Shown here one piece after another: positions 13,450-50,425 of a stretch of 64,000 nucleotides of DNA. Below the pieces are notes generated by a model. The model did not search any database. It was not told where the DNA came from and saw nothing but the letters and a program-made list of their open reading frames with translations. Every line of letters begins with the position of its first letter. Position 1 is the stretch's first letter. Source of the stretch: Stieleria maiorica. GTDB taxonomy: Bacteria > Planctomycetota > Planctomycetia > Pirellulales > Pirellulaceae. The position numbers and the translations under genes are program-made. The stretch is from the NCBI RefSeq assembly GCF_008035925.1, contig NZ_CP036264.1:5206402-5270401 (forward strand), written 5' to 3'.

Positions 13450-13508
13450 CGCCGCCTCCCCAATTCAAGTTTCTGCTTCCTTTCAGTCCACTTACACTGG
13501 CAATTGCG

Positions 13509-14486
13509 ATGACGTCTCACCCGACCGATGAATCGCCGAACTTTGACGCCTATTACGAGAGAATCAAGAACGAACCGACGTACATCATTCTCGGTGCCCA
13601 GGGATCGGGAACAAATTTCCTGTCTCGGATTCTTGGACGAACGCTCGACTTTTCCGTCACGCTCGATCGCTCGCTGATCGTCAATGCTGCGGCGAATCTT
13701 TGTCGTGATCGTTCGCAGTCGCGAGCTCAAGTGGAAGCCAAACGCATCGTCCAATCGCTATTCCCGGGTCCCATTCGAAAGCGTCTGTTGTCCAAACGGT
13801 TCTTCAACAAGAACCGCAAATACACGGGGATCGAAAAACACTTGCGGCACGCGATCACGGATTCGCCGGCCGATTTTGCCAACTTCTTCTACAGCTACCA
13901 TGCGTTCGTAGATGGAAAATCGCACAAGGGTATCAAGAGCGACGACATCTGGGAGAACATCGATCTTCTGCACGAGATCATTCCCAACTATCGCGTGTTG
14001 CTGTTGATTCGGGATCCCCGAGACAACACGATTTCCATCATGAAGAAGAACTTCGGACCACGAGAGATCTACAACGCCTCTCGATACGTCCGCAACCGAA
14101 TGGACCACTACATTTCGTTTGCCGATCGAGACCCGCAACGAACGCTCCTGGTCAAGTACGAAGACTTGTTAACCAATCCGTATCAATGCGCGATGAGGGT
14201 TGCCAAATTCGCCGACTGCGCGATCCCCGACACACTCCAGCAACAGATTGCCAATCTGAACATACGGCCGAACAAGCACCGTAAGTGGAAAAAACTTTCC
14301 GAGCGTGATTTGGCGACGACGGAAACGGTATTCGCAGATTTGCTGGATCGATTCGATTACGAACGCGGTGCCAGCTACGAGTACACGCCGACAGGATTGC
14401 AGTGTGCCGCACGCAATTTCAAAGATCTGTTGCTGCGGATTCCTCAAAAAGCGGCAGTCAAGACCCGTCGCTATGTTCGCGGCTGA
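13509..14486 (+). CDS. Sulfotransferase-family protein
   Basis: A 325-residue P-loop protein. The 5'-phosphosulfate-binding loop is IILGAQGSGTNFLSRIL (about residues 26-42). The 3'-phosphate-binding region is LLLIRDPRDNTISI, with the RDPRD motif typical of PAPS-dependent enzymes, and LLVKYEDLLTNP matches the later conserved helix. The ATG at 13509 is used because the frame upstream overlaps the kinase gene. Together with the next gene it suggests the exported glycan is sulfated, using PAPS in the cytoplasm. The target sugar and position are unknown. Confidence 0.85.
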   Translation: MTSHPTDESPNFDAYYERIKNEPTYIILGAQGSGTNFLSRILGRTLDFSVTLDRSLIVNAAANLCRDRSQSRAQVEAKRIVQSLFPGPIRKRLLSKRFFNKNRKYTGIEKHLRHAITDSPADFANFFYSYHAFVDGKSHKGIKSDDIWENIDLLHEIIPNYRVLLLIRDPRDNTISIMKKNFGPREIYNASRYVRNRMDHYISFADRDPQRTLLVKYEDLLTNPYQCAMRVAKFADCAIPDTLQQQIANLNIRPNKHRKWKKLSERDLATTETVFADLLDRFDYERGASYEYTPTGLQCAARNFKDLLLRIPQKAAVKTRRYVRG

Positions 14487-14533
14487 ATCGGCCCGAGATT
14501 CATCCAATCAGAACCTGCAGCATCTAGCTTCGC

Positions 14534-15382
14534 ATGAGCATCGTCCAGCGCGTCGTCAGTCGTCAACGCAAGATCACCAAATCGATCCGCTGGCGTGCTT
14601 TTTCTTCACTTGAACAATACCAGCAGATCGTATTTGTTGTCGGTTGCCAACGCTCCGGAACGACGCTGGTGATGAATTGTTTCGACAATGATGCTCGGGC
14701 GATTGTGTTTCGAGATGACAGCGTTTTATCGGGACATCAAGGCAATCGTCTTCGCATCAAACCGTACGCCGAAGTGAAGGCAATACTGGCGAAAACTCGT
14801 TGCCCGTTGGTCGTTGCAAAACCACTCCTGGACAGTCAACGGACTGACGAACTCCTTGACGACTACCCGCGGTCAAAGGCGATTTGGATGTTCCGTCACT
14901 TTCGTGGCGTGGTGGGATCCAATCTCCGCAAATTCAAGGGGCAAGTTGAAAACATCCGCAGGGTCTTGGAGATGCCCGAAGATTGGAGGGGCGAGCGGGT
15001 ATCCGATGAAACACGCGACTTCATTCGTCCCTTCGTGAACCCCGAGATGAGGCGTGAAGATGCGGCGGCCCTTGTCTGGATCGCTCGTAACAACCTCTTT
15101 TTTGAACAGTCGCTGCAGAACTGCGATCGAACGTTCCTGCTGCCCTACGAGGATCTCGTCAAGTCCAGTCGCGATACAGTGAAAGGAATCTACCGGTTCT
15201 TGGGGATCAGTCAGCCGACCAAACCGGTCGACCGATCCATTCATCAGCGAGCACTCGGTCGCGGACAAGACCTTGACATTCATCCCGAGATTCTGGCGCG
15301 TTGTGAAAACATCCAGCAGAAGTTGGTCGAGTGTGCCGCACAGAAGACGCGAGCAGTACGAATCGAGGAAGAACAGGTCTAG
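14534..15382 (+). CDS. Sulfotransferase-family protein
   Basis: A 282-residue protein with the P-loop GCQRSGTT (about residues 37-44) and the 3'-PAPS region KAIWMFRHFRGVVGSNLRKF, then LLPYEDLVKSSRDTVKGIYR, the conserved Tyr-Glu-Asp-Leu helix. It differs clearly from the neighbouring sulfotransferase at 13.5-14.5 kb, so it is not a recent duplicate. Its TAG stop overlaps the GTG start of the following deacetylase (TAGTG), suggesting coupled translation. It probably acts on the same glycan at a different position. Confidence 0.82.
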   Translation: MSIVQRVVSRQRKITKSIRWRAFSSLEQYQQIVFVVGCQRSGTTLVMNCFDNDARAIVFRDDSVLSGHQGNRLRIKPYAEVKAILAKTRCPLVVAKPLLDSQRTDELLDDYPRSKAIWMFRHFRGVVGSNLRKFKGQVENIRRVLEMPEDWRGERVSDETRDFIRPFVNPEMRREDAAALVWIARNNLFFEQSLQNCDRTFLLPYEDLVKSSRDTVKGIYRFLGISQPTKPVDRSIHQRALGRGQDLDIHPEILARCENIQQKLVECAAQKTRAVRIEEEQV

Positions 15383-16479
15383 TGGCCAGACGGATTAAAC
15401 CAGCACTCAAGCACTTCATGCTGTTCGTATTGAAGTACTCCGGTGTATTGCGCTGTTCACGACGTTGGACCACCCGCAAGGGGTTTCTGATCATTGGGTG
15501 GCACGGCGTCAGCCTTGAAGATGAACACAAGTATTTCCACACCCTTTTTATCTCGCCGGAGCAGTTCGAGCAACGAATCAAGTTTCTAAAGAACACGTTT
15601 CAGATCGCTTCGCTTGAGGAGTGCCTTGCGCAAAAGGAAGCCGGAACGATCAAGCCGGGGCAGGTGGTGCTAACGTTTGATGATGGGTACTACAACTTTT
15701 TACAGCGGGCCGTGCCGATCCTTGATCGATACGACGCACCGGCGGTTAATTATGTTGTATCGGCGCGGATGCTCGATGCGAGAAGCAAACCCAACCTTGT
15801 CCTCCGCGATTGTATCTACCGCACGAATTGCACGGAATTGGTCGCGGACGGCATCGGCTGTGAGCGGGCTCTGCCGCTGAGAAGCTCTTCGGATCGACGC
15901 CGTGCGGAGAAGCAAGTTCTCAAATGCTTGGATCAAACCCCAGCTGCCGATAAAGACGCGTTTGTGAATCGAGTCGGCGAGGCTCTGGGAATTGATGTCG
16001 GCGAGATTCGTCGACGCAGATTTTGGACCAGCATGACTGAAGACGAAGTTGCCGAGTTGGCAAACCGCAACGGGAAGTTCTCGTTGCAGTTGCACTCACA
16101 CGAACACATCAACGCGGTCGCGTTGGGCGACAAGTTGAGCGAAGATCTTCGTCTTTGTCGGTCAGCCATCGAAAAGGCGACGGGACGTCCGGCACGCGAC
16201 TTTTGCTTTCCCACCGGGCTCTGGTCCCATAGCACATGGGATGCGTTGCAGGAAAACGGAATTCGAAGTGCCGTCACCACGAGGCGGGGGCCCAACTTCG
16301 TCGAAACACACAATTACAACTTACGGCGGGTCATGGACGGCGGGGCGAACACCCAGTTGGAGTTTGAGTTCGAAGTCAGCGGCATCAAGTGGTTACTTCA
16401 CAGTTGGTTGCACCCCAAGGCGAAATACAACCCGAGTGAGAAACTCGCCCGATATCGGGATGACAAGGTGCGGTATTGA
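15382..16479 (+). CDS. Polysaccharide deacetylase (NodB family)
   Basis: About 365 residues. The NodB core has VLTFDDGYYNF (TFDDGY at 98-103) and the metal-binding His pair in LQLHSHEH, then CFPTGLWSHSTWDALQ. Unlike the XrtA-type enzyme at 8.9 kb it lacks the DUF3473 tail and has a longer insert between the motifs. GTG 15382 is chosen because it overlaps the previous stop and GAGGAA lies upstream; an earlier in-frame start would put ~50 bases inside the sulfotransferase gene. It may deacetylate a sugar before or after sulfation (N-deacetylation followed by N-sulfation is one possibility, an inference only). Confidence 0.85.
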   Translation: MARRIKPALKHFMLFVLKYSGVLRCSRRWTTRKGFLIIGWHGVSLEDEHKYFHTLFISPEQFEQRIKFLKNTFQIASLEECLAQKEAGTIKPGQVVLTFDDGYYNFLQRAVPILDRYDAPAVNYVVSARMLDARSKPNLVLRDCIYRTNCTELVADGIGCERALPLRSSSDRRRAEKQVLKCLDQTPAADKDAFVNRVGEALGIDVGEIRRRRFWTSMTEDEVAELANRNGKFSLQLHSHEHINAVALGDKLSEDLRLCRSAIEKATGRPARDFCFPTGLWSHSTWDALQENGIRSAVTTRRGPNFVETHNYNLRRVMDGGANTQLEFEFEVSGIKWLLHSWLHPKAKYNPSEKLARYRDDKVRY

Positions 16480-16552
16480 TTCTTCGAATGGTTCGCCGGA
16501 GATCACTTGCACATCGCAGATGCGACATGAATACAACGGATAGTGTGTTATC

Positions 16553-18703
16553 GTGAGTTTGATTGGAAAAATCCGAAAACTGCGACGCATGGGGCCCGCG
16601 GAAGTCGGCGGTCGTGTGCTGAGTGAGTTGCAAGTAAAAAAACTGCACTGGGCGGCTCGGCAAAACGGATCCAGTAATCGAGAGTTCGCCGTCCCAGTTG
16701 AAACTGCGATCCAGCGTTGCATCGACCTGGTTCCCGGTTCGGGCCAATCGGAGCTTGCGCGTCTAAGGACGCAGTATCCGCAATACTTCCAGTCACTTCA
16801 GAAGAAATCCGAATCGATCGGCGGTCGAATCGCATCTGGCTCCTACTCGCTGTTGGGCAAGCCTTTTTCGGCAGACCCCAAAATTTGCTGGAACACGGAC
16901 CCCACCACCGGGCATACTTGGTCCGATGACTTTTTCAAACAGGTGGCATATCACAAGTCGCCCGGGCACGTCGATTTCAAAAACATTTGGGAGTTGGGAC
17001 GACAGCAGTATGCTGTCGAATTATCACGTTCGTGGCTGCTTAATGGGAATCGCCAGCACGGTGAACTTGCCCGCGACATGGTGCTAAGTTGGATCTTCCA
17101 CAATCCGTTTTGCCGTGGGATCCACTGGACCAGCGGACTCGAGGTGGCGATGCGAGCGATCTCGTGGATTTGGACGCTTGCCAACCTGAGAGATTTTCCC
17201 TTTTGGGCGACACAGCAGAGAGAACGTGTGATTTCCAGCCTGGGGCAACACGCCTACTACCTGGAGAATCATTTTTCGTTCTACAGCAGCCCATACAACC
17301 ATGTCATCGGCGAGGCATCCGGACTCTGCTTGATTGCCTGCGTGTTGCGAGAGTCGAAGCATGCCAATCGCTGGAAGCGACGGGCGATCCAAGTTCTCAA
17401 GGATTTCGCCCCAAGGCAGTTTTACGCCGATGGATTTTGCGTGGAACAGGCGATGGGCTACCACTACTACACGCTCGGGTTCCTGGTGTTGGCGGAGTCG
17501 GCGATGCGCATCGACAACGGCGCGGGGCTGGGGATGGACGATCTGATGGTCCAGGCGTTTCGCACCGGGGTTGCGTTTCGACAATCCGACGGCAGTTGGC
17601 CGGCAATCGGCGACGTTGATTCGGCGCAGTCGATTCCAGTTGCTCGTGACGAATACTGGGATTTTTCGCCGATGCACCAGTTGGCCGCCGTCCTTTTCGA
17701 GGATCCACTGATCGCGGTCGAGTCGGATGCCGGCACGCAAGAGGAAGACGGTTTCGGGTTGGGTGACGAGCTGTATTGGTTGACCGGTTGCAACGGTCTC
17801 AGACGCAGGACAGAACTCTCGGCTCGGCCGACAAACCCCATCAGCGTCTTCCCCGATGCAGGCTACTTCGTCGCAGGGAACGGCAGCGATCATGTCGTGT
17901 TTGACGCCGGGCCGATCTCTCACGGATTGCATCGGGATTCGACACCCTCGGCGGCCCACGGACATGCCGATACGCTGCAATTGCTTTATCAATTCGACGG
18001 CAAGCCCGTTTTGATCGACAGCGGCATGCCCAACTACGCCGGCAACCCGCAACGTGCCGCCCATTTTCGTTCACCTCAGGCGCACAACACCGTCAGCCTG
18101 TCGGACGCAGAATTGGTTCGTTCCAGGGGCGTTTTGGATTGGTCAAATGAAGTCCAGACACCGACATTAAGACATTCGGGCGATTCCGACCGCTGGATCG
18201 CATTTGGCGAAATTCAATGGCCCGATTGCCGCATCGCTCGGCATATTCTTGCGATTCCCGGACGGGGCCTCTGGGTCGCCGACTTGCTGCACAGCGAACA
18301 TCCCCGGACCGCAACATGGCACTGGCAGTTTCCTCCCGGTTCGGACCTGACAATGCTCGCGTCGGAACCGGCGATTCACGTTCGGGGAACACCCCGATCG
18401 GTCCGCGCGGTCGGATCGGTGCCCCTGTCGACGGGTGAATTGTGTGATGGCGATGAGAACAAGCAACGTGGCTGGACCAGTCCTGGTTACGGGGTGATAG
18501 AACGCGGCTGCACATTGACCTATCAGGCGCACGTCGAATCCGCGGCGGTCGTTCTGACGCACTTTGGGGATTGCGCTGAAAACGTTGGCTTCGATGTCGA
18601 CGGCTGTCGCGTGCAGTTTTCAGCGACAGAAGACGATTCCAAGGCAGAATCGTGCGACAGCGCCGGCCGAGGCAACTGGTTCATTCTTCCTACGACGGCA
18701 TGA
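16553..18703 (+). CDS. Heparinase II/III (alginate-lyase) family protein
   Basis: A 716-residue protein. The N-terminal (alpha/alpha) toroid (about residues 60-370) contains the conserved PYNHVIGEASGLCLIACVL and FCVEQAMGYHYYTLGFLVLA segments. The C-terminal beta-sandwich includes the heparinase II/III signature SAAHGHADTLQLLY (about 460-475) and LIDSGMPNYAG. Families of this type cleave uronic-acid-containing chains by beta-elimination. No signal peptide is visible, which is common for the homologues in EPS loci, where they are thought to edit or release the polymer. The nearby AlgD-like dehydrogenase makes a uronic acid, consistent with a uronate-containing substrate. Start GTG 16553; the stop overlaps the ATG of the next gene. 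Confidence 0.88.
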   Translation: MSLIGKIRKLRRMGPAEVGGRVLSELQVKKLHWAARQNGSSNREFAVPVETAIQRCIDLVPGSGQSELARLRTQYPQYFQSLQKKSESIGGRIASGSYSLLGKPFSADPKICWNTDPTTGHTWSDDFFKQVAYHKSPGHVDFKNIWELGRQQYAVELSRSWLLNGNRQHGELARDMVLSWIFHNPFCRGIHWTSGLEVAMRAISWIWTLANLRDFPFWATQQRERVISSLGQHAYYLENHFSFYSSPYNHVIGEASGLCLIACVLRESKHANRWKRRAIQVLKDFAPRQFYADGFCVEQAMGYHYYTLGFLVLAESAMRIDNGAGLGMDDLMVQAFRTGVAFRQSDGSWPAIGDVDSAQSIPVARDEYWDFSPMHQLAAVLFEDPLIAVESDAGTQEEDGFGLGDELYWLTGCNGLRRRTELSARPTNPISVFPDAGYFVAGNGSDHVVFDAGPISHGLHRDSTPSAAHGHADTLQLLYQFDGKPVLIDSGMPNYAGNPQRAAHFRSPQAHNTVSLSDAELVRSRGVLDWSNEVQTPTLRHSGDSDRWIAFGEIQWPDCRIARHILAIPGRGLWVADLLHSEHPRTATWHWQFPPGSDLTMLASEPAIHVRGTPRSVRAVGSVPLSTGELCDGDENKQRGWTSPGYGVIERGCTLTYQAHVESAAVVLTHFGDCAENVGFDVDGCRVQFSATEDDSKAESCDSAGRGNWFILPTTA

Positions 18704-26832: not shown

Positions 26833-27780
26833 ATGAGAATCGTAGTACTTGGGAACGGGCAATTCGCATCGAATTGCTTGAACGTTTTTTGCAAGTTCGA
26901 CGATGTGGACGTTGCACTGGTACTGATCGACCCTGACGTCAGTGCATTACACGGGTTGTTGGAAGCGACGTGCGATCGCCACGCGATTCCATGGAAACAG
27001 ACGAGAGCCGTCAACTCTCCCAAGATCGTGCGTGAAATCCGGGATCTGGAGCCGGATTATCTGTTCAGCATCTATAACATGAGGATCTTGCGAAACGCTC
27101 TGCTCGACACGCCCCGTCTTGGGACGATCAATTTTCACAACGGTCCGCTTCCGCGTTACCGCGGACTGAATGTCTACAGTTGGGCGATCGTCAATGGTGA
27201 ATCGGAATACGGAGTGACATGGCATTTTGTGGATCAGGGTATCGACACCGGCGACGTCATCCTGCAAAAGCACTTTCCGTTGGATTGCGATGAATCACCG
27301 TTATCCTTGTCAAAAAAGGGATTTTCTGCGGGCGTCGCGCTTCTCGAAGACCTTGTCCCACAACTGCTCGACGGCAGTTTCCGTCGGATTCCCCAAGACG
27401 CTTCGAAAGCAGTCACCTACACCGGCAAAGACATTCCGAATTCGGGCTGGATTGACCTGACTTGGCCCTGGCAACGGGTAGAGCGATTTGTCCGTGGTCT
27501 AAATTACCTGCCGTTGCCGAACCCGATTTCGATGCCGACACTTAGCCATCAGGGCAAACAGTTTCATCCACATCTTGTTCAGTGGTGTCGTCAAAACGCC
27601 GACGGGGAAATGCCCGGGCAGGTCGTCGGATTCGATCGCAGTTCGTTAGAAATATGTGTGGCGGATGCGGTCGTTCGCATGTCCGACATCGTCGACGCGG
27701 ACCAGAATCCGGTTGATCTACCAGATCTTCTCTGCGACCTCGATCTGGGCGTTGGCACACGACTTTCCAGCGAATCCTGA
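26833..27780 (+). CDS. Formyltransferase-family protein
   Basis: A 315-residue protein with the 10-formyltetrahydrofolate-dependent catalytic triad: INFHNGPLPRYRG (Asn100, His102) and HFVDQGIDTGDVI (Asp138), as in methionyl-tRNA formyltransferase and sugar N-formyltransferases. The C-terminal OB-like part (residues ~210-310) is present but diverged. It is the first gene of the MBOAT cassette, 10 bases before the next gene, and is too far from tRNA-related genes to be the housekeeping Fmt. A role in N-formylating an amino sugar or the free amine of the transferred acyl group is an inference. ATG 26833 is used rather than the TTG six bases upstream. Confidence 0.87.
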   Translation: MRIVVLGNGQFASNCLNVFCKFDDVDVALVLIDPDVSALHGLLEATCDRHAIPWKQTRAVNSPKIVREIRDLEPDYLFSIYNMRILRNALLDTPRLGTINFHNGPLPRYRGLNVYSWAIVNGESEYGVTWHFVDQGIDTGDVILQKHFPLDCDESPLSLSKKGFSAGVALLEDLVPQLLDGSFRRIPQDASKAVTYTGKDIPNSGWIDLTWPWQRVERFVRGLNYLPLPNPISMPTLSHQGKQFHPHLVQWCRQNADGEMPGQVVGFDRSSLEICVADAVVRMSDIVDADQNPVDLPDLLCDLDLGVGTRLSSES

Positions 27781-27790
27781 TTCATGTGTG

Positions 27791-28894
27791 ATGTCTCCCG
27801 AGAGTTCGATTGCGATGCGTAACGCATCAGATTCGCCACCTTCGAATGCGGTGAAGGAATTCTGGCTAGGCGCTACCACGCCGTCCTTGTTAGCCGTAAC
27901 ACTCGCCTTTTTCATCCCGGCAAGCTTGTTATTGACCGCCTTGCTGCTGATCACTCCGGAATTCATGGTCTCGGAGAACTTTCGGTACCTTTACGACCGA
28001 CGCAGCAACGACACCGACAACTTCGTGACGCACAAAGTCTTGTCGTTCGTGCCTCCAAAGGGACAGGCAGTCTACCTTTTCGGTTCCTCGTCCACACGCG
28101 AAGCGATCCATACGGAAAAACAACTTGAGCGGGCGATAGCCGCGCACTCCGATCAACGCGTGAACGTGTACAACTTTGCGAATGCCGGTGCATCGTTCTG
28201 GGAAACGTTTCAGGTTGTCGATCGGTTGCCGAAACTGACCAACGGCATCGTTGTCATCGAGGTTCGCCCACTGCACTTCTGCAGAGGTGTCGATCGACTG
28301 CGTGAGGTCATCGAATCGCCACGTCTAGGCGTGACGTCACCGATGATCGATTCGACAGCGAGAGCGAATGGGATCCAGGTTCCCAGGCGCCTGGGAATTT
28401 ACGCCTGGGACAATCGTCGCTTCTTTTTGGCCCGGATCCCTTCGATTCCGAAAAACCTGATGGATCCAATCGTCGTTTCACAATCACGACATCTTGCCGC
28501 GGAACAGGTAGACCAGGTGACTTGGACCGACCACATCGAAAAGCGGACGGATTTGCTCGCATCATTCCAGCAGAATGTTGCGGATACGTCAAAATTCCTG
28601 AAGGCATCGATCCGCCGGTTGAAACAGAACGACAACGTCCAGGTCGTCTTGTTGGAGGCGACGATGAGTCCTCGAATGAAACGCCATGACATCGATCGCG
28701 GTTTCTGGCCTATTTACCAAAATGTCATCGCCGACGTTAGCAACGAGTGCGACGTGATGTACTGGGACATCAATGATTCAGTTCCGGAGTCTGGCTATTT
28801 GGATTGGGCACATCTCCGAAACCTCGACGCGAAATCCCGGTTCGCCGACGCGCTCGCCAAAAAGGTTGCCGAGCAACTGGACGCGACACGATGA
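27791..28894 (+). CDS. Membrane-anchored SGNH-like/DltD-like protein
   Basis: A 367-residue protein with a long N-terminal membrane helix (about residues 30-60) and a periplasmic domain. It has the SGNH-type block I strand followed by Ser (VYLFGSSSTREAI), block III-like NVYNFANAGASFWE, and a C-terminal DxxH-like WDINDSVPESGYLDWAHL. Proteins of this type (DltD, AlgJ/AlgX, PatB) partner MBOAT transferases in passing acyl groups to envelope polymers. It overlaps the 43-residue gene downstream by ATGA. I see the fold signals but did not verify the full catalytic triad. Confidence 0.75.
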   Translation: MSPESSIAMRNASDSPPSNAVKEFWLGATTPSLLAVTLAFFIPASLLLTALLLITPEFMVSENFRYLYDRRSNDTDNFVTHKVLSFVPPKGQAVYLFGSSSTREAIHTEKQLERAIAAHSDQRVNVYNFANAGASFWETFQVVDRLPKLTNGIVVIEVRPLHFCRGVDRLREVIESPRLGVTSPMIDSTARANGIQVPRRLGIYAWDNRRFFLARIPSIPKNLMDPIVVSQSRHLAAEQVDQVTWTDHIEKRTDLLASFQQNVADTSKFLKASIRRLKQNDNVQVVLLEATMSPRMKRHDIDRGFWPIYQNVIADVSNECDVMYWDINDSVPESGYLDWAHLRNLDAKSRFADALAKKVAEQLDATR

Positions 28895-29022
28895 AGCGAA
28901 CCTTTAGAACCGTCGGCTCCATCGTGCAAGGCATTGTACTTGGCGTTCTATTAAGTGTTGCCCTGTGGAAAATGCTTTCCATTGCCTCTGGCGCCCGGGT
29001 ATTTGATTACCAGGGTTTTTGA
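28891..29022 (+). CDS. 43-residue DltX-like membrane protein
   Basis: A tiny gene starting with ATG overlapping the SGNH stop (ATGA) and ending 16 bases before the MBOAT gene. It has a basic N-terminus (MKRTFRT), one hydrophobic helix (about residues 10-31) and an extracytoplasmic tail ending VFDYQGF. The final six residues have the pattern F-x-Y-x-x-F. To my knowledge Gram-positive DltX proteins have the same size, topology and a C-terminal FIYNEF-type motif whose Tyr accepts D-alanine before it passes to teichoic acid. Position next to an MBOAT fits. It is short enough that gene finders may skip it. Coding status is supported by overlap, motif and spacing. Confidence 0.72.
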   Translation: MKRTFRTVGSIVQGIVLGVLLSVALWKMLSIASGARVFDYQGF

Positions 29023-29038
29023 TGGCGGATAAGTCACC

Positions 29039-30217
29039 GTGATTCAGTCGATCTGGTTTTGGGCGGTCATCCTGCTTTCGGTCCCGATATTCTGGTTGTT
29101 GGCCAAGGGATTTCGACTGTCGTTCCTATCCATCGTCTCATTTGGCTACCTGCTATGGATCGCACCACTGAGCGTCGTGTGTTTGCTGGGATTCAGCATT
29201 GCGATCTACGCGATTGCGAAGACCGTGCCGCGAGAGCGTTCCGGAACACTCTACGTCGCGTTCGCCGTCGCGATCGTTGCATTTCTCGCGGCCTTCAAAT
29301 ATGCGGGCCCGATCTTACAGAGTTTCAATTCAGCCGAACTTCAATCCGCGCAGTATCTGATACCGCTTGGAATCAGCTATTACGTTTTCAAGCTGTTGCA
29401 TCTGGCAATCGAATTGAACCGTGGCTCGATAGGGGACCTCACACTGCCGAGCCTATTGTCCTACGCCTTTCTTTTCACGACGTTTTCATCCGGCCCGATC
29501 GAACGATACGATCATTACGTGGCGAACCAGGAGACGACTCCCAGTCGCGCGATGTTTGCCGAAGGCTTGTGGCGGATTGCCATCGGGTTGATCAAGAAAT
29601 TTGTCGTCGCGGATATTTTAGTTGAAATGCTCTTCGGCAGCATTTCCCGGTCTCAACTGATGCACTTCTTACCGGGCATGTCTCCGCTACGAACGTGGGT
29701 CTTCTTGGCGACCGCGTTCTTACGAGCGTACATCGACTTCAGTGCCTACTCCGACATTGCCATTGGTGCCAGTCGACTTTTCGGTCTTCGCATCATGGAA
29801 AACTTTCGGTTTCCGATTTTCGCGATCAACCTGTCCGAGTTCTGGAAACGTTGGCACATGACGTTGACCGGATGGTGCACGTCGTACATCTACATGCCGA
29901 CGATGGGACGGACTCGAAGTCCCTACGTGGCGGCTTATGCGTCATTCATCGTGATGGGCATCTGGCACGGAGCAAGTCTCAATTGGGTTGCGTGGGGTGT
30001 TCACCACGCAACGGGAATCTGTATTTATGGCATGTGGAGTCGATTCAAACGGCAACGCTACCGGGATTCACTGAACGGTCCGGCGTTTCGGGCCGGGGGG
30101 TGGTTGCTGACCATGGCATTCGTATCGATGGGTTTTGCATTCATCGAGACGGCTTCCTCTTTGGACGCTCTACGGGTGATCGCAAAGCTTTTCTTCATCA
30201 CGCTACCAGTTTCTTGA
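29039..30217 (+). CDS. MBOAT-family O-acyltransferase (DltB/AlgI-like)
   Basis: A 392-residue polytopic protein with the MBOAT core: PLGISYYVFKLLH (about 109-121), IDFSAYSDIAIGASRLFG, NFRFPIFAINLSEFWKRWH and the catalytic His in VMGIWHGASLNW (His310). The length is that of DltB (about 400), shorter than AlgI (about 520). MBOAT proteins of this branch move an acyl group from a cytoplasmic carrier across the membrane to an extracellular acceptor. Here the carrier and its ligase are encoded directly downstream, pointing to a carrier-bound acyl donor instead of acetyl-CoA. GTG start at 29039; the last codons are 1 base before the ligase gene. Confidence 0.92.
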   Translation: MIQSIWFWAVILLSVPIFWLLAKGFRLSFLSIVSFGYLLWIAPLSVVCLLGFSIAIYAIAKTVPRERSGTLYVAFAVAIVAFLAAFKYAGPILQSFNSAELQSAQYLIPLGISYYVFKLLHLAIELNRGSIGDLTLPSLLSYAFLFTTFSSGPIERYDHYVANQETTPSRAMFAEGLWRIAIGLIKKFVVADILVEMLFGSISRSQLMHFLPGMSPLRTWVFLATAFLRAYIDFSAYSDIAIGASRLFGLRIMENFRFPIFAINLSEFWKRWHMTLTGWCTSYIYMPTMGRTRSPYVAAYASFIVMGIWHGASLNWVAWGVHHATGICIYGMWSRFKRQRYRDSLNGPAFRAGGWLLTMAFVSMGFAFIETASSLDALRVIAKLFFITLPVS

Positions 30218-30218
30218 A

Positions 30219-31781
30219 ATGTTTCGTTTCACACTGCATGACCTTCTGTCTGCCAATCTCCGCGACAATGCAGACTCGATCGCGATTGTTTCTGGCGACC
30301 AGGAGATCAGCTACCAAACGCTTGCCCGACGCGTTGACGTTTTAGCAGCGTGGCTTCATCGCCACGGGGCGGGCCGAGGGATGCGAGTTGGCATCCACAT
30401 GCGAAAGAGCCCCGAAGAGATCATTGCCACGCTTGCTTGTGCACGTGTCGGCGCAACCTTCGTCAACATCAGCGAAACGTGGACGCCCGCACAATTAAGC
30501 TACATCGTTGAGGACTGCCAGATCCGCATCCTGCTGACCGATTACCAGCGAGCGAAGCGGGCTCATCAGGCCGACGTGCTGTCGGGTTTAGAGCACATCG
30601 GATTGACTTCCGCGGGAAAAACGCCGGTACCGGGAACCACCGAGTTGCCGAACGACGGGGACGCAATCGATGCTTCAGTCGATCTCCCCATCGACGCCGA
30701 TCTCGCAGCCTTGCTTTATACCTCAGGCTCGACCGGCAAGCCGAAAGGCGTGATGGTGACGCATCGCAACTTGATTGACGGAGCCCGTAGCGTCGCGTCC
30801 TACCTGAACAACACGTCCAATGACAGGATCCTTGGGCTACTTCCGTTGTGTTTTGACTACGGCTTGAGCCAGTTGACTACTTCGTTGCTGGTCGGAGCAA
30901 CGAATGTCCTGCAGCCCGTGGCGATGGCAACGGAAATCGTAAAGACGATACAGGAAGCGAAAGTGACCGGACTTGCCGCGGTCCCTCCGATCTGGATTCA
31001 ATTGGTACGGTACCTGGAAGATTCCGGTGTCCGGCTTCCATCCTTGCGATACGTCACCAACTCCGGGGGGAAGATCCCCGACGCGATCCTGCGTGCAATG
31101 CCCGACGTCTTTCCGGATGTGGACTTGTATTTGATGTACGGGCTGACGGAAGCATTTCGTTCGACGTACCTCGAACCGTCTCGATTCGCAGAAAAAAGAG
31201 GCTCGATGGGACGGGCGATCCCCAACGTCAATGTCTTCGTCGTCGATGAAGAACGCGGACTTTGCGATCCCGGGCAAAAAGGGGAACTGATTCACCGTGG
31301 CAGCCTGATCAGCCAAGGCTACTGGGGCAATCCCGAAGCGACCGACAAAAAAATCAGGGTTTGCGATCACTTGCGACACTTGCTGGGCGACGAAAAAGTG
31401 CTCTTCAGCGGTGACATCGTCACGATGGACGAAGACGGGGATCTTTGGTTCGTGGGCAGGAATGATGAGCTGATGAAATGTAGTGGCTTTCGCGTCAGTC
31501 CGACAGAAGTGGAAGAACTGGTCTTCGCGAGTGGGCTTGTCGGTGACGTTGTCGCATTCGCCGCCAGCGATGAGGAATTGGGGCAGATCATCTGCGTCGC
31601 CGTGTCCGCGCGAGATGGGGACGAGCTGGTGGATGTCGCGGCGATTCGTCGGCATTGCCAAAAGAACATGCCCAATTACATGGTCCCTAAACAAATCCAC
31701 CGTTGGTCAGGGAAAATGCCGCGGACGGGCTCCGGTAAGATTGACCGGTCACTCGTTCGAACTGCCTACCTTGATGGTTGA
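30219..31781 (+). CDS. AMP-forming acyl/aminoacyl-carrier ligase (DltA-like, exosortase-A associated)
   Basis: A 520-residue ANL-superfamily enzyme. Motifs: LLYTSGSTGKPKGVMVTH (A3, about 165-182), FDYGLSQLTTSLL, YVTNSGGKIP, YLMYGLTEAFRS (A5), LFSGDIVTMDEDGDL (A7), FVGRNDELMKCSGFRVSP (A8) and the catalytic Lys in PRTGSGKIDRS. Length and lack of extra domains match DltA and the exosortase-A-associated acyl-CoA ligase family. It would adenylate a carboxylic or amino acid and load it on the carrier protein encoded 33 bases downstream. The typical Asp that fixes an alpha-amino group in adenylation domains could not be aligned with confidence, so the substrate is open. Confidence 0.9.
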   Translation: MFRFTLHDLLSANLRDNADSIAIVSGDQEISYQTLARRVDVLAAWLHRHGAGRGMRVGIHMRKSPEEIIATLACARVGATFVNISETWTPAQLSYIVEDCQIRILLTDYQRAKRAHQADVLSGLEHIGLTSAGKTPVPGTTELPNDGDAIDASVDLPIDADLAALLYTSGSTGKPKGVMVTHRNLIDGARSVASYLNNTSNDRILGLLPLCFDYGLSQLTTSLLVGATNVLQPVAMATEIVKTIQEAKVTGLAAVPPIWIQLVRYLEDSGVRLPSLRYVTNSGGKIPDAILRAMPDVFPDVDLYLMYGLTEAFRSTYLEPSRFAEKRGSMGRAIPNVNVFVVDEERGLCDPGQKGELIHRGSLISQGYWGNPEATDKKIRVCDHLRHLLGDEKVLFSGDIVTMDEDGDLWFVGRNDELMKCSGFRVSPTEVEELVFASGLVGDVVAFAASDEELGQIICVAVSARDGDELVDVAAIRRHCQKNMPNYMVPKQIHRWSGKMPRTGSGKIDRSLVRTAYLDG

Positions 31782-31814
31782 GATCACTTTTCACCTCCTT
31801 CTCCGAGTAGAAAC

Positions 31815-32060
31815 ATGCAAATCGATCGAAACGAATTCCTGAAGTACCTTGATGAAAAGATGGGCGTTGACACCTCCGAAATCGAGGGTGATACAGCGCT
31901 CTTCTCGAGCGGAATCCTGGACTCATTTAGCATGGTTGACGTGGTGATGTTTATCGAAAAATCAGCTCAGACAAAGTTGCGCCCCGGTGAAGTGAATCTC
32001 GAAAACCTTGACTCCGTCGATCGAATCATCAACTTCATCGAGACGCGGCAAGACGATTGA
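31815..32060 (+). CDS. Acyl/aminoacyl carrier protein (DltC-like)
   Basis: An 81-residue four-helix carrier protein. The phosphopantetheine attachment site is GILDSFSMVDVVMFIE (Ser37), in the usual position at the start of helix 2. The sequence after Ser is Phe instead of the common Leu/Met. Sited between the ligase and decarboxylase genes, it is the obvious carrier for the activated acid and donor to the MBOAT protein. A phosphopantetheinyl transferase is not in the window and must come from elsewhere. The stop overlaps a TTG in front of the next gene. Confidence 0.92.
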   Translation: MQIDRNEFLKYLDEKMGVDTSEIEGDTALFSSGILDSFSMVDVVMFIEKSAQTKLRPGEVNLENLDSVDRIINFIETRQDD

Positions 32061-32065
32061 ACAAC

Positions 32066-33298
32066 ATGAACGAACTCTTGCAGCAGGTGGCAACCGAATT
32101 CGGAACACCCTGCTATGTATACTGCATCGATCAGATCCGTTCGCGCTGCCAACTCGTCAAAGACGTGTTCGGGTCGCGCTTTCAAATCTCGTATGCGGTG
32201 AAATGCAATCCCAACCGGGGCCTGCTGGAACGGTTGCGCGAGTGCGTCGATCTGCTCGACATTTCATCGGTCGGCGAATTGCATCGTGCGATTGATGCGG
32301 GCTGGAGTGCATCGTCGCTTAGTTTTACGGGACCGGGCAAACGCCCCCATGAGATTGAAGAGGCGGTCAGGGTGGGCATCGGCGAAATGGTCGTCGAATC
32401 CGTCCCGGAAGCGATCGCCTTGAATCGGTACGCCGAACAACTCGGCCGCGTCCAGCCCGTTCTGGTCCGGATCTCTCCCGCCAAGTTGCCTCGAGGGTTC
32501 GGTGTCCGCATGGCGGGGCGACCGAGCCAGTTCGGGATCGACGAAGAAGACATCGACCTGGAGATGCCTCGAATCCAGAGCCTATCAAACCTGGAGATAC
32601 GCGGGTTGCATATCTATTCGGGGACCCAGTGCCTGAACACACAATCAGTCATCGAAAACTACTCGATCATGATTGATCTTTTCCGTCGGGTTGCCCACAC
32701 CCATGATCTGTCGCCCCAACGATTGGTCTTCGGATCCGGCCTGGGGATTCCCTATTACCAAGAACACGAACCCATTGACTTGAATGAGGTTGCCAGCGAA
32801 ACCTGCCCCATGCTGGACGCGCTTCGGGGCGAGCAACGATTTTCCGAAGCCAAGTGTGTCCTGGAAACGGGCCGATTCATCGTCGGTGAAGCCGGCTATT
32901 TCTTGACCGGTGTGGTGGCGAGAAAACATTCACGCGGCACCGAGTTTGCCATCCTTGATGGTGGCATGAACCATCATCTCGGTGCCTGTGGCCACTTGGG
33001 GACGGTGATCCACCAAAACCACCGCATGTTCAAAGTGTCCCCCGACGGAGCAGGAGAATCCGCGACCCAGAAATATGACTTGGTTGGTCCTCTTTGCACG
33101 ACGATCGATACCGTCGGCCACGATGTTGAATTGACGGAACTTGAGATCGGCGATGTGATCGCAATTCAAAGCAGTGGAGCATACGGGCGCAGCGCCAGTC
33201 CGCTCGGTTTTATCAGCCACAAGGCTCCCAAAGAGATTCTTCTGGATGTGACAGGAACCGGCCCGGATTTGCACGATGTGACCGAGAGCTGGCCATAG
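32066..33298 (+). CDS. PLP-dependent decarboxylase (LysA fold; exosortase-A associated / BtrK-like)
   Basis: A 410-residue fold-III PLP enzyme. The Schiff-base Lys is in YAVKCNPN (Lys46), then DISSVGELHRAIDAG, GLHIYSGTQ, FGSGLGIPYY and LETGRFIVGEAG, and a C-terminal beta-barrel with VGPLCTTIDTV (Cys of the active site). The GRF-VGEAG pattern is that of exosortase-A-associated decarboxylases and of BtrK, which decarboxylates glutamate while it is bound to a carrier protein. The gene is 5 bases after the carrier gene. A diaminopimelate decarboxylase in lysine synthesis is less likely here, since LysA is normally elsewhere. ATG 32066 is used; TTG 32057 is possible. Confidence 0.88.
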   Translation: MNELLQQVATEFGTPCYVYCIDQIRSRCQLVKDVFGSRFQISYAVKCNPNRGLLERLRECVDLLDISSVGELHRAIDAGWSASSLSFTGPGKRPHEIEEAVRVGIGEMVVESVPEAIALNRYAEQLGRVQPVLVRISPAKLPRGFGVRMAGRPSQFGIDEEDIDLEMPRIQSLSNLEIRGLHIYSGTQCLNTQSVIENYSIMIDLFRRVAHTHDLSPQRLVFGSGLGIPYYQEHEPIDLNEVASETCPMLDALRGEQRFSEAKCVLETGRFIVGEAGYFLTGVVARKHSRGTEFAILDGGMNHHLGACGHLGTVIHQNHRMFKVSPDGAGESATQKYDLVGPLCTTIDTVGHDVELTELEIGDVIAIQSSGAYGRSASPLGFISHKAPKEILLDVTGTGPDLHDVTESWP

Positions 33299-33313: not shown

Positions 33314-33361
33314 GACACGCCGGGGCCAGGACACGCCGGGGCCAGGACACGCCGGGGCCAG
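33314..33361 (+). repeat. Three perfect 16-bp tandem repeats
   Basis: Three head-to-tail copies of GACACGCCGGGGCCAG occur at 33314-33329, 33330-33345 and 33346-33361 without a mismatch, starting 15 bases after the decarboxylase stop. The perfect identity suggests recent expansion; copy number may vary between strains. They are too short and unspaced to be CRISPR repeats. Confidence 0.95.
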
Positions 33362-33395
33362 CGCCGTATAAATTTCCCCCGCATGATCCCCCCGA

Positions 33396-43835: not shown

Positions 43836-44059
43836 CGACCACCCTTCGCAAATCGCCTGCTGTCGCTACGCCACGGAACGCACCTCTTCGATTAATCGCT
43901 ACAATTGGCAAACGCCTTTCGTCTCCCCTGCGAAGTTGAACCACGGTTCTGACTACCGATTGCATCCGATCCGACGGCTCGCAAAATGAGCGTTTCACTT
44001 GAGGCGCGTGATCAACAAACAGAGTGAATTCGCGACGTGAAAAAACGCATAGAGAAAAC

Positions 44060-44968
44060 ATGTCAAGCAACAACGTAGCAAACGCGTCGGCAATGCCTCA
44101 GGACGCTGAACGCCCAGTTGAACGCGAGAATCAAACTGCGATCGATGATTTGACCGTCACAGTCATTGAGCCGCGCAACGGACTGCGGCTGCTTGACCTG
44201 GCTGAGCTGTTGCAGTACCGCGACCTGTTCATGTTTCTCGTCTGGCGTTCGGTAAAGGTGCGGTACGCCCAGTCGGCGATCGGGATCGGATGGGCAGTCA
44301 TCCAACCGGTTTTTTCGATGCTCGTTTTCAATATCGTCTTTGGCAAGCTGGCCAACATGGAATCGGACGGTGTGCCCTATGCGATCTTCAGTTTTACAGC
44401 ACTGGTCCCCTGGACGTATTTTTCAAACGCAGTCAATGACGGAACCAACAGTCTGGTCACGGGCGCAAACATCATCAGCAAGGTCTACTTTCCCCGGTTG
44501 ATTCTGCCGCTTTCGGCCGTCACGGCGAAACTGATCGATTTCGCGATCGCGATGGGGGTGCTAGCGTTGATGATGGTATGGTTTCAGGTCGTTCCTACGT
44601 GGGGCATCTTAGCATCGCCCCTGCTGATCGTGATGATGATTTTGACGGCGTCCGGCTTGGGGACATGGTTAACCGCACTGGCTGTCCAGTATCGCGACGT
44701 TAAACATGCGATGTCGTTTGTCGTGCAGTTGTTGATGTACGCGGCACCGGTCGTCTACCCAACCTCACTGGTTCCTGAACGATTCCAATACCTTTACGCT
44801 CTCAACCCGATGGTGGGAGTGATCGAGGGCTTCCGTGCGGCGTTGCTGGGGACTAGAGATATGCCATGGGATTTCATCGCGATCGGATTTGCAACCAGCA
44901 TCTTGATCGCCGCGACGGGGTTGGTGTATTTCCGAAACCGAGAACGCTTGTTCGCTGACGTCGCGTAA
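44060..44968 (+). CDS. wzm: ABC-2 polysaccharide exporter permease (Wzm-like)
   Basis: A 302-residue permease with a cytoplasmic N-terminal arm (LLDLAELLQYRDLFMFLVWR), the start of TM1 marked by VRYAQSAIGIGWAVIQPVFS, and six membrane segments in all, ending with a C-terminal FRNRERLFADVA. RLILPLSAVTAKLIDF and QYRDVKHAMSFVVQLLMYA are the ABC-2 family signature helices. It pairs with the ATPase encoded next to export a lipid-linked glycan across the inner membrane. ATG 44060 is preferred over GTG 44024. Confidence 0.94.
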   Translation: MSSNNVANASAMPQDAERPVERENQTAIDDLTVTVIEPRNGLRLLDLAELLQYRDLFMFLVWRSVKVRYAQSAIGIGWAVIQPVFSMLVFNIVFGKLANMESDGVPYAIFSFTALVPWTYFSNAVNDGTNSLVTGANIISKVYFPRLILPLSAVTAKLIDFAIAMGVLALMMVWFQVVPTWGILASPLLIVMMILTASGLGTWLTALAVQYRDVKHAMSFVVQLLMYAAPVVYPTSLVPERFQYLYALNPMVGVIEGFRAALLGTRDMPWDFIAIGFATSILIAATGLVYFRNRERLFADVA

Positions 44969-45016
44969 GGTTGCACGATTCAGTCGGTGCCCCAACACTC
45001 CATCCAGACAAACAGA

Positions 45017-46387
45017 ATGTCAACTCCACTGATCACTGTCGAAGGGCTGTCAAAGGCGTATCGCATTGGGTTAAAAGACGAGATTCCCGATACGTTCATG
45101 GGCGCATTGACCGGCTGGCTGCAGTCCCCGCTTCGCAACCTGAATCGTCTCCGTCGTCTCAACACCTTTCACAAAGAGGTCGCCACGGCGCGAAGTGCGG
45201 GCAACCGCAGCCAACAAGGGTCGATGGCGGCCCCGGACGATGGCGGATTGTCGACCGACATCGAAACAGACATTGTGTGGGCGTTGCAGGACATCTCGTT
45301 TGAGATCAACCAGGGGGAGGTGGTTGGTGTGATCGGGCACAACGGCGCGGGCAAGAGCACGTTGCTCAAGGTGCTTTCCCGCATCACCGATCCGACGACC
45401 GGCCGAGCGGTGATTCGGGGGCGCGTCAGCAGCCTGCTCGAGGTCGGAACGGGATTCCATGCGGAACTGACCGGTCGCGAAAATGTTTACATGAACGGAA
45501 CGATTCTCGGGATGACCAAACGGGAAATCGATCGAAAGTTTGACGACATCGTCGAATTCAGCGGTGTCAATAAGTTTCTTGACACGCCCGTCAAACGCTA
45601 CTCATCGGGCATGAAGGTGCGGCTGGCATTTGCCGTCGCCGCACACCTTGATCCCGAAATCCTTATCATCGACGAAGTCCTGGCCGTCGGCGATGCAGGG
45701 TTTCAACGAAAGTGTATCGGAAAGATGCAGGACGTGGCCCAGAGTGGCCGCACGGTCCTATTCGTCAGTCACAATGCGGTCGCGCTTCGGAGCCTGTGCC
45801 AACGCGGAATCTTGCTGCAAGGAGGACGAAGCGTGATGGACGGCCCGCTACCAGAAGTCCTCGATTTCTACCTTTCATCGCTGAACTCCGTCGCCGCCCA
45901 GGAAGACCTCGCGACGCGCACCGATCGTGGCGGAAAAGGTGACTTCAGGGTGCAGGCGATCGAAATACGCGACGAACAAGACGTTGCGATCAACACCGTC
46001 GCGACCGGTCAACCGACAACCGTTGCCGTCCAGATTTCCGATTCGGTCAACTGTCCCCAGTGCGCCTTGCGTGTTTATGACGACAAGGGACATTTCATCA
46101 CTCAATTTGACTCTCGCCTCAACTCGCTCGAGGATGACTTGCCAAATGTGTCGACCGATGTGATTCGATGCAGCGTTCCCGAGGTTCTGCTGATGCCCGG
46201 GCACTACCGAGTGGATGTAGAACTCTTTGCCGAAGGCGTGCGACAAGATCAGGTCAAAGCGGCGTGTGCGATCGAAGTCATTAGTGGTCGATTGCATGGG
46301 CGTCCGCTCAAGGATCGCAACAACCTTCCATCCATTGCCCATCCACATCGTTGGGTCTACCAGACTCCGTGTCAAAAAGAAGCATAG
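45017..46387 (+). CDS. wzt: ABC exporter ATPase with C-terminal glycan-binding domain (Wzt-like)
   Basis: About 456 residues. The nucleotide-binding domain has GHNGAGKSTLLK (Walker A, about 108-119), signature KRYSSGMKVRLAFAVA, Walker B ILIIDEVLAVGDAGFQ and H-loop VLFVSHN. A long segment (~residues 28-86) precedes the conserved ALQDISFEI. The C-terminal ~150 residues form a beta-rich Wzt-C domain (VAVQISDSVNCPQCALRVYD). In O9a-type systems this domain recognises a methyl/phosphate cap on the finished chain. Such a cap could come from the methyltransferase/P-loop fusions at 54.0-56.6 kb (inference). Confidence 0.94.
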   Translation: MSTPLITVEGLSKAYRIGLKDEIPDTFMGALTGWLQSPLRNLNRLRRLNTFHKEVATARSAGNRSQQGSMAAPDDGGLSTDIETDIVWALQDISFEINQGEVVGVIGHNGAGKSTLLKVLSRITDPTTGRAVIRGRVSSLLEVGTGFHAELTGRENVYMNGTILGMTKREIDRKFDDIVEFSGVNKFLDTPVKRYSSGMKVRLAFAVAAHLDPEILIIDEVLAVGDAGFQRKCIGKMQDVAQSGRTVLFVSHNAVALRSLCQRGILLQGGRSVMDGPLPEVLDFYLSSLNSVAAQEDLATRTDRGGKGDFRVQAIEIRDEQDVAINTVATGQPTTVAVQISDSVNCPQCALRVYDDKGHFITQFDSRLNSLEDDLPNVSTDVIRCSVPEVLLMPGHYRVDVELFAEGVRQDQVKAACAIEVISGRLHGRPLKDRNNLPSIAHPHRWVYQTPCQKEA

Positions 46388-46474
46388 TGGCCGATTCGAT
46401 TCGTGTCGAAAACGATTGTCAAGCCATGTCGCTTGCGTCTGAGATCATTTGTGCATGGGGATTGTAGGTTGAGC

Positions 46475-47146
46475 ATGGACAATACCAATTTGATTACCGC
46501 TTTCATCCAGGCTCGCATGTCATCGAGTCGCTTTCCCGGCAAAGTGCTGACGCCGTTTCTCGGACGACCGCTGATCAGTCACGTCATCGATGCGGTCCAG
46601 ACGGTTCACCTGATCGATCAGACCGTGGTCGTGACCAGCGATGAACCTTCGGACGATCCGCTGGTCGACTACTTGGATTCGATCGGTTGCGATGTCTTTC
46701 GCGGTCCATTGGATGACGTGTTCGGGCGTTTCCTGGCGGCGATGAAGCGGTTCCCGTCCGACTGGGTGCTGCGATTGTGCGCCGACAGCCCTCTGCTCAG
46801 TCCGAATGTTCTGAACGAAGTTTGCCGACATGCGATGCCCGACGCCAACTGGGATATCGTTACAACTCGTTTTGCCCCGAAGTACCCCAAGGGACAGAAT
46901 GCGGAATTGATCCGGGCCGATGCGATGAAATCAATCGACGCGGAGCATTTGACCGACCATGACCGCGAGCACGTTACACCGTGGTTCTACCGCCACCGGG
47001 ACCAATACCGCATCGCCAATGCTCGCGGAGTCACGATCGACCTGGCCGGTGGCGACTATACGGTCGACACGCCAGACGATCTTGTTCGATTGGAAGCGAT
47101 GCGCTCCAGCACCGGCAATCCCTCCCAAACGGATGAAGCGACGTGA
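46475..47146 (+). CDS. SpsF-like cytidylyltransferase-family protein
   Basis: A 223-residue nucleotidyltransferase: ITAFIQARMSSSRFPGKVL (the nucleotide-binding loop of CMP-sugar synthetases), FRGPLDDVFGRFLAA and LRLCADSPLLSP with the metal-binding Asp. SpsF-type proteins are encoded with SpsE/NeuB-type synthases in spore-coat and flagellar glycan loci. It probably activates the sugar acid made by the next gene's product with CTP. ATG 46475 is preferred over the upstream GTG 46403. The stop overlaps the next start (GTGA). Confidence 0.86.
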   Translation: MDNTNLITAFIQARMSSSRFPGKVLTPFLGRPLISHVIDAVQTVHLIDQTVVVTSDEPSDDPLVDYLDSIGCDVFRGPLDDVFGRFLAAMKRFPSDWVLRLCADSPLLSPNVLNEVCRHAMPDANWDIVTTRFAPKYPKGQNAELIRADAMKSIDAEHLTDHDREHVTPWFYRHRDQYRIANARGVTIDLAGGDYTVDTPDDLVRLEAMRSSTGNPSQTDEAT

Positions 47147-48171: not shown

Positions 48172-48252
48172 GTTTACCCCACGCGCCCATTCGTCTGATC
48201 CAATATTCCTCGCCGCACGGCGTCCGGTTACTCCTGTCCCTTTCGATCGATT

Positions 48253-50387: not shown

Positions 50388-50425
50388 CAGCGGTTGATTC
50401 GGACGACAGTCCTGTCCTGCGCAAA

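Follow-up and report, generated by a model that had tools for sequence, protein, structure and literature searches.

A Dlt-like acyl-transfer cassette with a putative on-carrier amino acid pathway in a planctomycete exopolysaccharide locus

Dlt-type chemistry is best known for placing D-alanine on Gram-positive teichoic acids, and the Bordetella dra locus provides Dlt-like genes outside the Gram-positives, with D-alanine on a Gram-negative surface. As set out in the accessible part of PMC12148441, the tyrosine of FXYXXF, the acyl-shuttle hexapeptide of DltX, accepts D-Ala from DltB and passes it to DltD, and a closely similar hexapeptide forms the C-terminal end of other membrane-bound O-acyltransferases (MBOATs) of such pathways. 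According to the same part of that source, neither a carrier protein nor a DltX-like microprotein is present in MBOAT/SGNH acylation pathways outside Dlt. Precedents for handling amino acids on a carrier come from antibiotic biosynthesis: in butirosin, BtrK converts carrier-bound glutamate to carrier-bound γ-aminobutyrate (GABA; PMC7857480, in the part accessible), and in vicenistatin, VinN loads 3-methylaspartate on VinL, with VinO decarboxylating it only after thioester formation (PMC11284099, likewise in part). Here we describe a seven-gene cassette at positions 26833-33298 of the window, i.e., the whole 64,000-nucleotide stretch of the Stieleria maiorica genome that was analyzed (G000:C1:5206402-5270401, in a single-contig genome of 9.89 Mb). 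We posit that the cassette probably encodes machinery that acylates a polymer in Dlt fashion, with cargo from an on-carrier amino acid pathway, a reading built on family, fold, motifs, phylogeny, and conserved linkage, the system being known here from its genes alone.

The likeness to Dlt lies in a single gene row that holds ligase, carrier, short MBOAT, FXYXXF microprotein, and SGNH protein, with DltB and DltD as best folds; the differences are a ligase that is not DltA, an added BtrK-type decarboxylase and formyltransferase, an MBOAT in a clade of its own, and an exosortase exopolysaccharide (EPS) locus as the setting. Because neither ligase nor carrier qualifies as DltA or DltC, we view the cassette as working like Dlt but do not class it as Dlt. 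PatA/PatB, AlgI, and WssH O-acetylation would share the acyl-Tyr relay to an SGNH protein, but their MBOATs carry the motif in cis and are described as having neither a carrier nor a DltX-like microprotein (PMC12148441, same part), whereas the window cassette has the motif in trans and a carrier. The cassette family in Planctomycetota and Candidatus Parabeggiatoa thus appears to break both of the statements quoted above, as they are worded in that part of PMC12148441.

The membrane core

The preliminary description of this stretch had proposed seven close-packed genes in which a Dlt-like core is joined to an exosortase-type ligase/carrier/decarboxylase module. Both points hold: a DltB/DltX/DltD-like core is joined to such a module in a glycan locus near an exosortase gene, and the open reading frames (ORFs), all on the + strand and tightly spaced (Table 1), lie where that description put them, with agreeing families (Formyl_trans_N, MBOAT, AMP-binding, PP-binding, and Orn_Arg_deC, the PP-binding score of the carrier, 20.5 bits, falling slightly below the 20.8 cut-off). 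The SGNH protein, assigned by fold search, had no confident Pfam or NCBIfam match in the family scans. Ten bases separate the formyltransferase and SGNH genes, the first 4 nt of the 43-aa gene are shared with the end of the SGNH gene, a single base lies between the MBOAT stop and the ligase gene, and five bases lie between the carrier and decarboxylase genes.

Table 1. Genes of the cassette, in window coordinates
Feature	Position	Strand	Product	Assigned by
Formyltransferase, Formyl_trans_N	26833..27780	+	315 aa	family scan
SGNH acyltransferase, DltD-like, N-terminal transmembrane helix	27791..28894	+	367 aa from ATG at 27791 (open frame extends upstream beyond this ATG)	fold search
DltX-like membrane microprotein ending FDYQGF, predicted acyl-shuttle Tyr40	28891..29022	+	43 aa	motif
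Short MBOAT, DltB-like fold, GTG start, His273 and His310 invariant	29039..30217	+	392 aa	
AMP-forming ligase, TIGR03098-like, probably acting on an amino acid; Asp213 and Arg314 in predicted pocket	30219..31781	+	520 aa	
Stand-alone carrier protein, Ser37 phosphopantetheine site	31815..32060	+	81 aa	
Pyridoxal phosphate (PLP) decarboxylase, BtrK type (on-carrier), TIGR03099-like	32066..33298	+	410 aa	

The microprotein ends in MLSIASGARVFDYQGF, and its final hexapeptide, FDYQGF, fits FXYXXF. The window MBOAT ends in ...ITLPVS and, like its relatives, has no FXYXXF in cis; the motif that window-type MBOATs lack is supplied in trans by the nearby microprotein. Counting eight further loci, from six other Planctomycetota genomes and one Candidatus Parabeggiatoa, the microprotein occurs in 8 of 9 loci next to MBOAT and SGNH genes, and all eight copies end exactly in FXYXXF; its relatives adjoin the MBOAT gene in seven other loci, or lie one gene off (L052). 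Q13, G18, F38, Y40, and F43 are invariant in an alignment of seven microproteins (window, L050, L051, L052, L058, L059, and L060), and the eighth, in L149, ends FRYVGF. Our controls were 77 of the 80 loci among the GTDB contig-scan matches listed, close relatives of the window MBOAT being left out. None of the 9,509 ORFs of 30-130 aa in these 77 loci (1.23 Mb) ends in FXYXXF, so the linkage of microprotein and MBOAT is more than chance. The control MBOAT frames carry the motif in cis in 80 of 82 cases; of the other two, one (L073) is apparently cut by a contig edge and one (L087) ends SIYAQF.

With the AlphaFold model of the MBOAT (pLDDT 76), Foldseek ranks DltB first to third (~1e-12), followed by PORCN (2.7e-7). 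Of the 46 rows in our tree, nine are the usable MBOAT genes from the nine loci (L059 contributes two and L148 none); these group in one clade (support 100/99), and 30 long MBOATs, mostly with the motif in cis, form a separate one (99/94), which the short MBOATs of L053 and L154 (Pelotomaculum) join (100/98). The DltB core, the short MBOATs of a fatty-acyl branch (L054-L056), and L057 fall outside both clades; the deeper branching order is tentative, DltB and L057 both sitting on long branches. The preliminary description had named grouping with acetyl-only AlgI/PatA enzymes as an outcome that would overturn it; no such grouping appears with the 30 long MBOATs that stand in for them, and the window MBOAT lacks their C-terminal motif as well. 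For the SGNH protein (model pLDDT 84), Foldseek ranks 1-3 are DltD, at 5e-5 to 2e-4 and with modest TM-scores of 0.38-0.39, an arylesterase coming fourth (2.5e-4) and other SGNH esterases close behind. G98, S100, D338, and H341 are invariant in 8/8 rows, and Ser100, Asp338, and His341 are the predicted catalytic residues of this DltD-type protein. Taken together, a Dlt-like transport core of MBOAT, microprotein, and SGNH protein is likely.

Some observations pull the other way. The DltD matches are modest, as just noted, and the second MBOAT within L059 has no microprotein immediately upstream. The 30 long MBOATs are our own choice from the collected loci, with no named AlgI or PatA row among them, and the placement of the sole DltB row is uncertain; it is the only one because none of 10 genomes behind other loci yielded a DltB sequence over the cut-off. 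The DltB model TIGR04091 gives the window MBOAT ~178-179 bits against a cut-off of 375. Since it gives nearly as much, 162 and 156 bits, to two long MBOATs encoded by the same genome, the model does not discriminate, and we rejected it as proof of DltB membership.

Among other short MBOATs, those of the planctomycete loci L054-L056 are 28-31% identical to the window's and are accompanied by an AMP ligase and a carrier match; small proteins of 40-53 aa ending FLYAVF or FLYGVF lie at L054:8989-9150, L055:4098-4259, and L056:10707-10829, and the two ligases scanned (L054 and L056) are of the fatty acyl-AMP type. This group may export fatty acyl groups in a Dlt-like way. In L053, a 57-aa protein with the C-terminus FIYIDF (L053:6493-6666) lies just 3' of the short MBOAT; the stretch examined there gave neither a ligase nor a carrier match.

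Loading and tailoring of the cargo

The ligase had been described as being of DltA length, but an assignment to DltA was rejected: its best NCBIfam match is TIGR03098 (561 bits; curated cut-off, 592), no DltA model appears among the best 25 of 108 families, and its nearest PDB relatives are mostly adenylation domains of nonribosomal peptide synthetases (NRPSs). Asp213 (in FDYGLSQL) and Arg314 (in YGLTEAFRST), which we take to be pocket positions 235 and 330 of GrsA, would be expected to bind an amino acid and are kept in 6 of 7 MBOAT-linked ligases. Six of these seven also form their own clade (91/95, under the tool's starred level). The carrier has its Ser37 invariant in 10/10 rows and scores under the DltC cut-offs (29.7 bits vs 68 and 18.9 vs 52.35 with two models). 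It turns up in 8 of 9 MBOAT loci; two of these, L050 and L051, have neither a decarboxylase nor a close relative of the window ligase.

In L050, the carrier gene lies directly 3' of the MBOAT gene (4-nt overlap as called), no relative of the window ligase occurs in the 19 kb examined, and a class II aminoacyl-tRNA synthetase (aaRS)-like protein matches the amino acid:carrier ligase Bll0957 (3MEY, 98 bits), of which no homolog was found in the window cassette. Enzymes of that type load amino acids onto carrier phosphopantetheine (PMC9437257, in the part accessible), and the homolog is a candidate loading enzyme in L050; amino acid chemistry seems to recur across the loci. The homolog is encoded at L050:5261-8636, along with an AurF-type N-oxygenase and a 419-aa protein, convergently with the SGNH, microprotein, MBOAT, and carrier genes.

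An amino acid-derived cargo is likely. A fatty or other simple acyl cargo is highly improbable: TIGR03098 bears the NCBIfam name acyl-CoA ligase, and fatty acyl-AMP-type ligases occur in the related short-MBOAT loci L054 and L056, but the FD...Q motif and the Arg of the window ligase, its mostly NRPS-type top PDB matches, and the presence in the loci of an amino acid decarboxylase, a PALP enzyme, or an amino acid:carrier ligase homolog argue otherwise.

The "LysA-fold decarboxylase" of the preliminary description is indeed a decarboxylase (Orn_Arg_deC), but the label undersells its BtrK type. A PDB search finds BtrK at E 4.8e-70 and the best diaminopimelate (DAP) decarboxylase at 9.2e-42. An 11-row tree separates two DAP decarboxylases, with 100/100 support, from BtrK and eight planctomycete enzymes. 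The residues of DAP decarboxylases that bind the distal end of DAP lie in RPALY, which follows the (G/A)(G/A)M stretch, and in a C-E pair of the GP.C motif; all nine enzymes on the BtrK side lack RPALY and show C-T where the two DAP decarboxylases show C-E. The window enzyme carries GGMNHHLGAC and GPLCTTIDT, in line with the GGMxHH and C-T of the BtrK type. LysA-type lysine synthesis was rejected on these signature residues and the tree. The nearest named family is TIGR03099 (368 bits; curated cut-off, 478), so that ligase and decarboxylase both fall closest to, and both score under the cut-offs of, the exosortase-A families TIGR03098 and TIGR03099, here joined to an MBOAT export core. BtrI/BtrK and VinN/VinL/VinO likewise pair a stand-alone carrier with a PLP decarboxylase working on the carrier, and VinN is the counterpart of the AMP ligase; VinO is likened by description, not by sequence, and those products go into an antibiotic, whereas that of the cassette would go onto an exported polymer. 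We consider vicenistatin the closest worked-out parallel to the loading module.

We infer the following sequence of events. The ligase would adenylate a dicarboxylic amino acid, most likely Asp, Glu, or a relative at its side-chain carboxyl, and load it on the phosphopantetheine of carrier Ser37. The BtrK-type decarboxylase, going by its family, would strip the free α-carboxylate on the carrier, leaving an ω-aminoacyl thioester, e.g., β-alanyl or γ-aminobutyryl. By homology to DltB/DltX, the MBOAT would then move the group from the carrier across the membrane to Tyr40 of the FDYQGF tail, from which the SGNH protein would take it via Ser100 and esterify the exosortase-EPS polymer; capping of the amine, or modification of an amino sugar, may be the task of the formyltransferase. 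Decarboxylation on the carrier is more probable than not, and the predicted modification, an ω-aminoacyl ester, is one that EPS chemists can search for directly.

In a simpler scheme, an intact amino acid would be loaded via its α-carboxyl, as in Dlt, and the decarboxylase would act on the free amino acid or elsewhere. In support, the PDB entries closest to the ligase are amino acid adenylation domains, with the Asp kept, an amino acid:carrier ligase homolog takes the ligase's place in L050, and most loci have no decarboxylase. We nevertheless find direct α-aminoacyl transfer rather improbable for the window, where the decarboxylase gene begins five bases after the carrier gene, the nearest solved relative acts on a carrier-bound substrate, and the extra Arg, at its presumed pocket position, suits a second carboxylate.

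The substrate of the formyltransferase may be a carrier-bound amine or a nucleoside diphosphate (NDP)-amino sugar. If the amine were capped on the carrier before export, a variant compatible with on-carrier decarboxylation, the modification would be neutral rather than cationic. The gene heads the row, 10 bases before the SGNH gene, and a homolog (30%) recurs in the Parabeggiatoa cassette L058; a GNAT gene follows the carrier gene in L148; and in vicenistatin VinM adds a second aminoacyl group to a carrier-bound amine (PMC11284099, in the part cited above). N-formyl aminoacyl export is still a tentative prospect, given that a formyltransferase is found in 2 of 9 loci (window and L058), that the nearest families of the window enzyme include the amino sugar formyltransferase ArnA (118 bits), and that this enzyme could serve the sugar genes of the locus.

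Linkage across genomes

Close MBOAT relatives (E 3e-84 or better) occur in 4 of 392 genomes of the phylum, the window's own included. One more was found among 397 genomes of one class (G593) and two among 298 of another (G771 and G877), and single genomes have one in classes of 12 (G083) and 9 (G066). Misses are possible in the phylum, 397-genome, and 298-genome searches because at most 4 to 6 first-look candidates were scored per genome. A GTDB scan adds the Candidatus Parabeggiatoa MBOAT (45%, among the matches listed); its Phycisphaerales and Planctomyces matches apparently lie on the same contigs as in G877 and G593. Across the loci the MBOATs are about 38-47% identical to that of the window, and 39 other relatives have MBOAT matches of at most 36% among those listed. 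No clear orthologue was found in 13 same-genus genomes, and plain vertical inheritance within the genus is rejected on this count.

With X for the microprotein and ACP for the carrier, the gene order is SGNH-X-MBOAT-ACP in L050 (G066) and in L051 (G259), which has a different AMP ligase nearby; X-SGNH-MBOAT-ligase-ACP-decarboxylase in L052 (G083); SGNH-X-MBOAT-FGE-ligase-ACP-PALP-formyltransferase in L058 (Candidatus Parabeggiatoa); SGNH-X-MBOAT-ligase-ACP-unknown-decarboxylase-SGNH-MBOAT in L059 (Phycisphaerales), a locus with a 259-aa protein; and ligase-SGNH-X-MBOAT in L149 (G771). Both G593 copies are interrupted: L060 reads X-MBOAT-ligase-ACP between two contig ends, with an apparent SGNH gene end before X, and L148 reads MBOAT(partial)-ligase-ACP-GNAT, cut before the microprotein position. 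A TIGR03098-like ligase is present in 7 of 9 loci, at just 30% identity in L059. The preliminary description expected the seven families to be conserved together; a core of MBOAT, microprotein (8/9), and carrier (8/9) does stay together, but the complete set was seen in the window alone.

The amino acid-loading, Dlt-like reading also meets contrary evidence at this level. A decarboxylase is found in 3 of 9 loci (window, L052, and L059; L060 ends before that point). For L149, neither BLAST nor the listed nearby ORFs gave a carrier, and Asp and Arg are both missing from its ligase; the L059 ligase falls outside the MBOAT-linked clade. In five other genomes (L165-L169), a ligase gene is paired with a decarboxylase gene in stretches that, as far as examined, gave no match to the MBOAT, SGNH protein, or microprotein; these are five of the six genomes with a strong decarboxylase match among 198 searched, the sixth being the window's own. 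A carrier-like match is nearby in four of the five (in one case on the opposite strand and in another within a 345-aa ORF), and the five ligases of this kind also keep Asp and Arg. The ligase/carrier/decarboxylase trio can therefore serve another purpose.

Such pairs favor a reading in which two modules are merely neighbors, the MBOAT, microprotein, and SGNH protein O-acetylating EPS from acetyl-CoA and the trio making a cytoplasmic aminoacyl group that could, for example, N-acylate a nucleotide sugar. L149, with its MBOAT, microprotein, and SGNH genes, yet no carrier found nearby, and the GNAT gene after the carrier gene in L148 are in line with it. We judge this division unlikely, since the MBOAT lies outside the clade of long MBOATs and lacks their C-terminal motif, the carrier accompanies the MBOAT even in L050 and L051, and the MBOAT-linked decarboxylases (3/3; 99/99) and most of the ligases form clades of their own, which favors a stable partnership.

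Returning to the Dlt-like machine, the acyl-tyrosine relay can be seen as a chassis with swappable cargo. We see about an even chance that short MBOAT, FXYXXF microprotein, SGNH protein, and carrier make up a general "Dlt chassis" outside the Gram-positives, its exchangeable loading modules being an amino acid ligase with an on-carrier decarboxylase (window, L052, and L059), an aaRS-like ligase with an AurF-type oxygenase (L050), a ligase with a PLP enzyme and a formyltransferase (L058), and, on a related branch, fatty acyl-AMP-type ligases (L054 and L056). If so, it would decorate envelope glycans with ω-aminoacyl, modified aminoacyl, or fatty acyl groups. A role would thereby be suggested for the exosortase-associated ligase/decarboxylase genes and for the amino acid:carrier ligases, whose biological role is, to our knowledge, not known. 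In the literature searched, no paper links exosortase with MBOAT, links planctomycetes and exopolysaccharide with MBOAT, or combines the exosortase, carrier, and decarboxylase themes.

Setting of the cassette

The exosortase gene (PF09721, 170 bits) lies at G000:C1:5204212-5204967 and ends ~1.4 kb before the window; it is the strongest of four exosortase-family matches above the Pfam cut-off in the genome. The window also codes for an AAA/ParA-type ATPase, a DUF3485 protein, an initiating sugar transferase, a DUF3473 polysaccharide deacetylase, glycosyltransferases, a UDP-glucose/GDP-mannose dehydrogenase, and two sulfotransferase-family ORFs. Because of the sugar dehydrogenase and sulfotransferase genes, the polymer of the locus looks anionic.

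The sulfotransferase-family ORFs belong to a group at 13215-18703, together with a weakly matching PgaB-like deacetylase and a protein that weakly resembles heparin-sulfate lyase, perhaps for a sulfated polymer. At 44024-52408, Wzm/Wzt-like ABC transporter genes accompany those for a cytidylyltransferase, NeuB, and a glycerophosphotransferase-like protein, and may serve a second polymer or a sialic acid-like sugar. Directly 3' of the decarboxylase gene, at 33316-33362, about three tandem copies of the 16-base unit acacgccggggccagg can be made out by eye.

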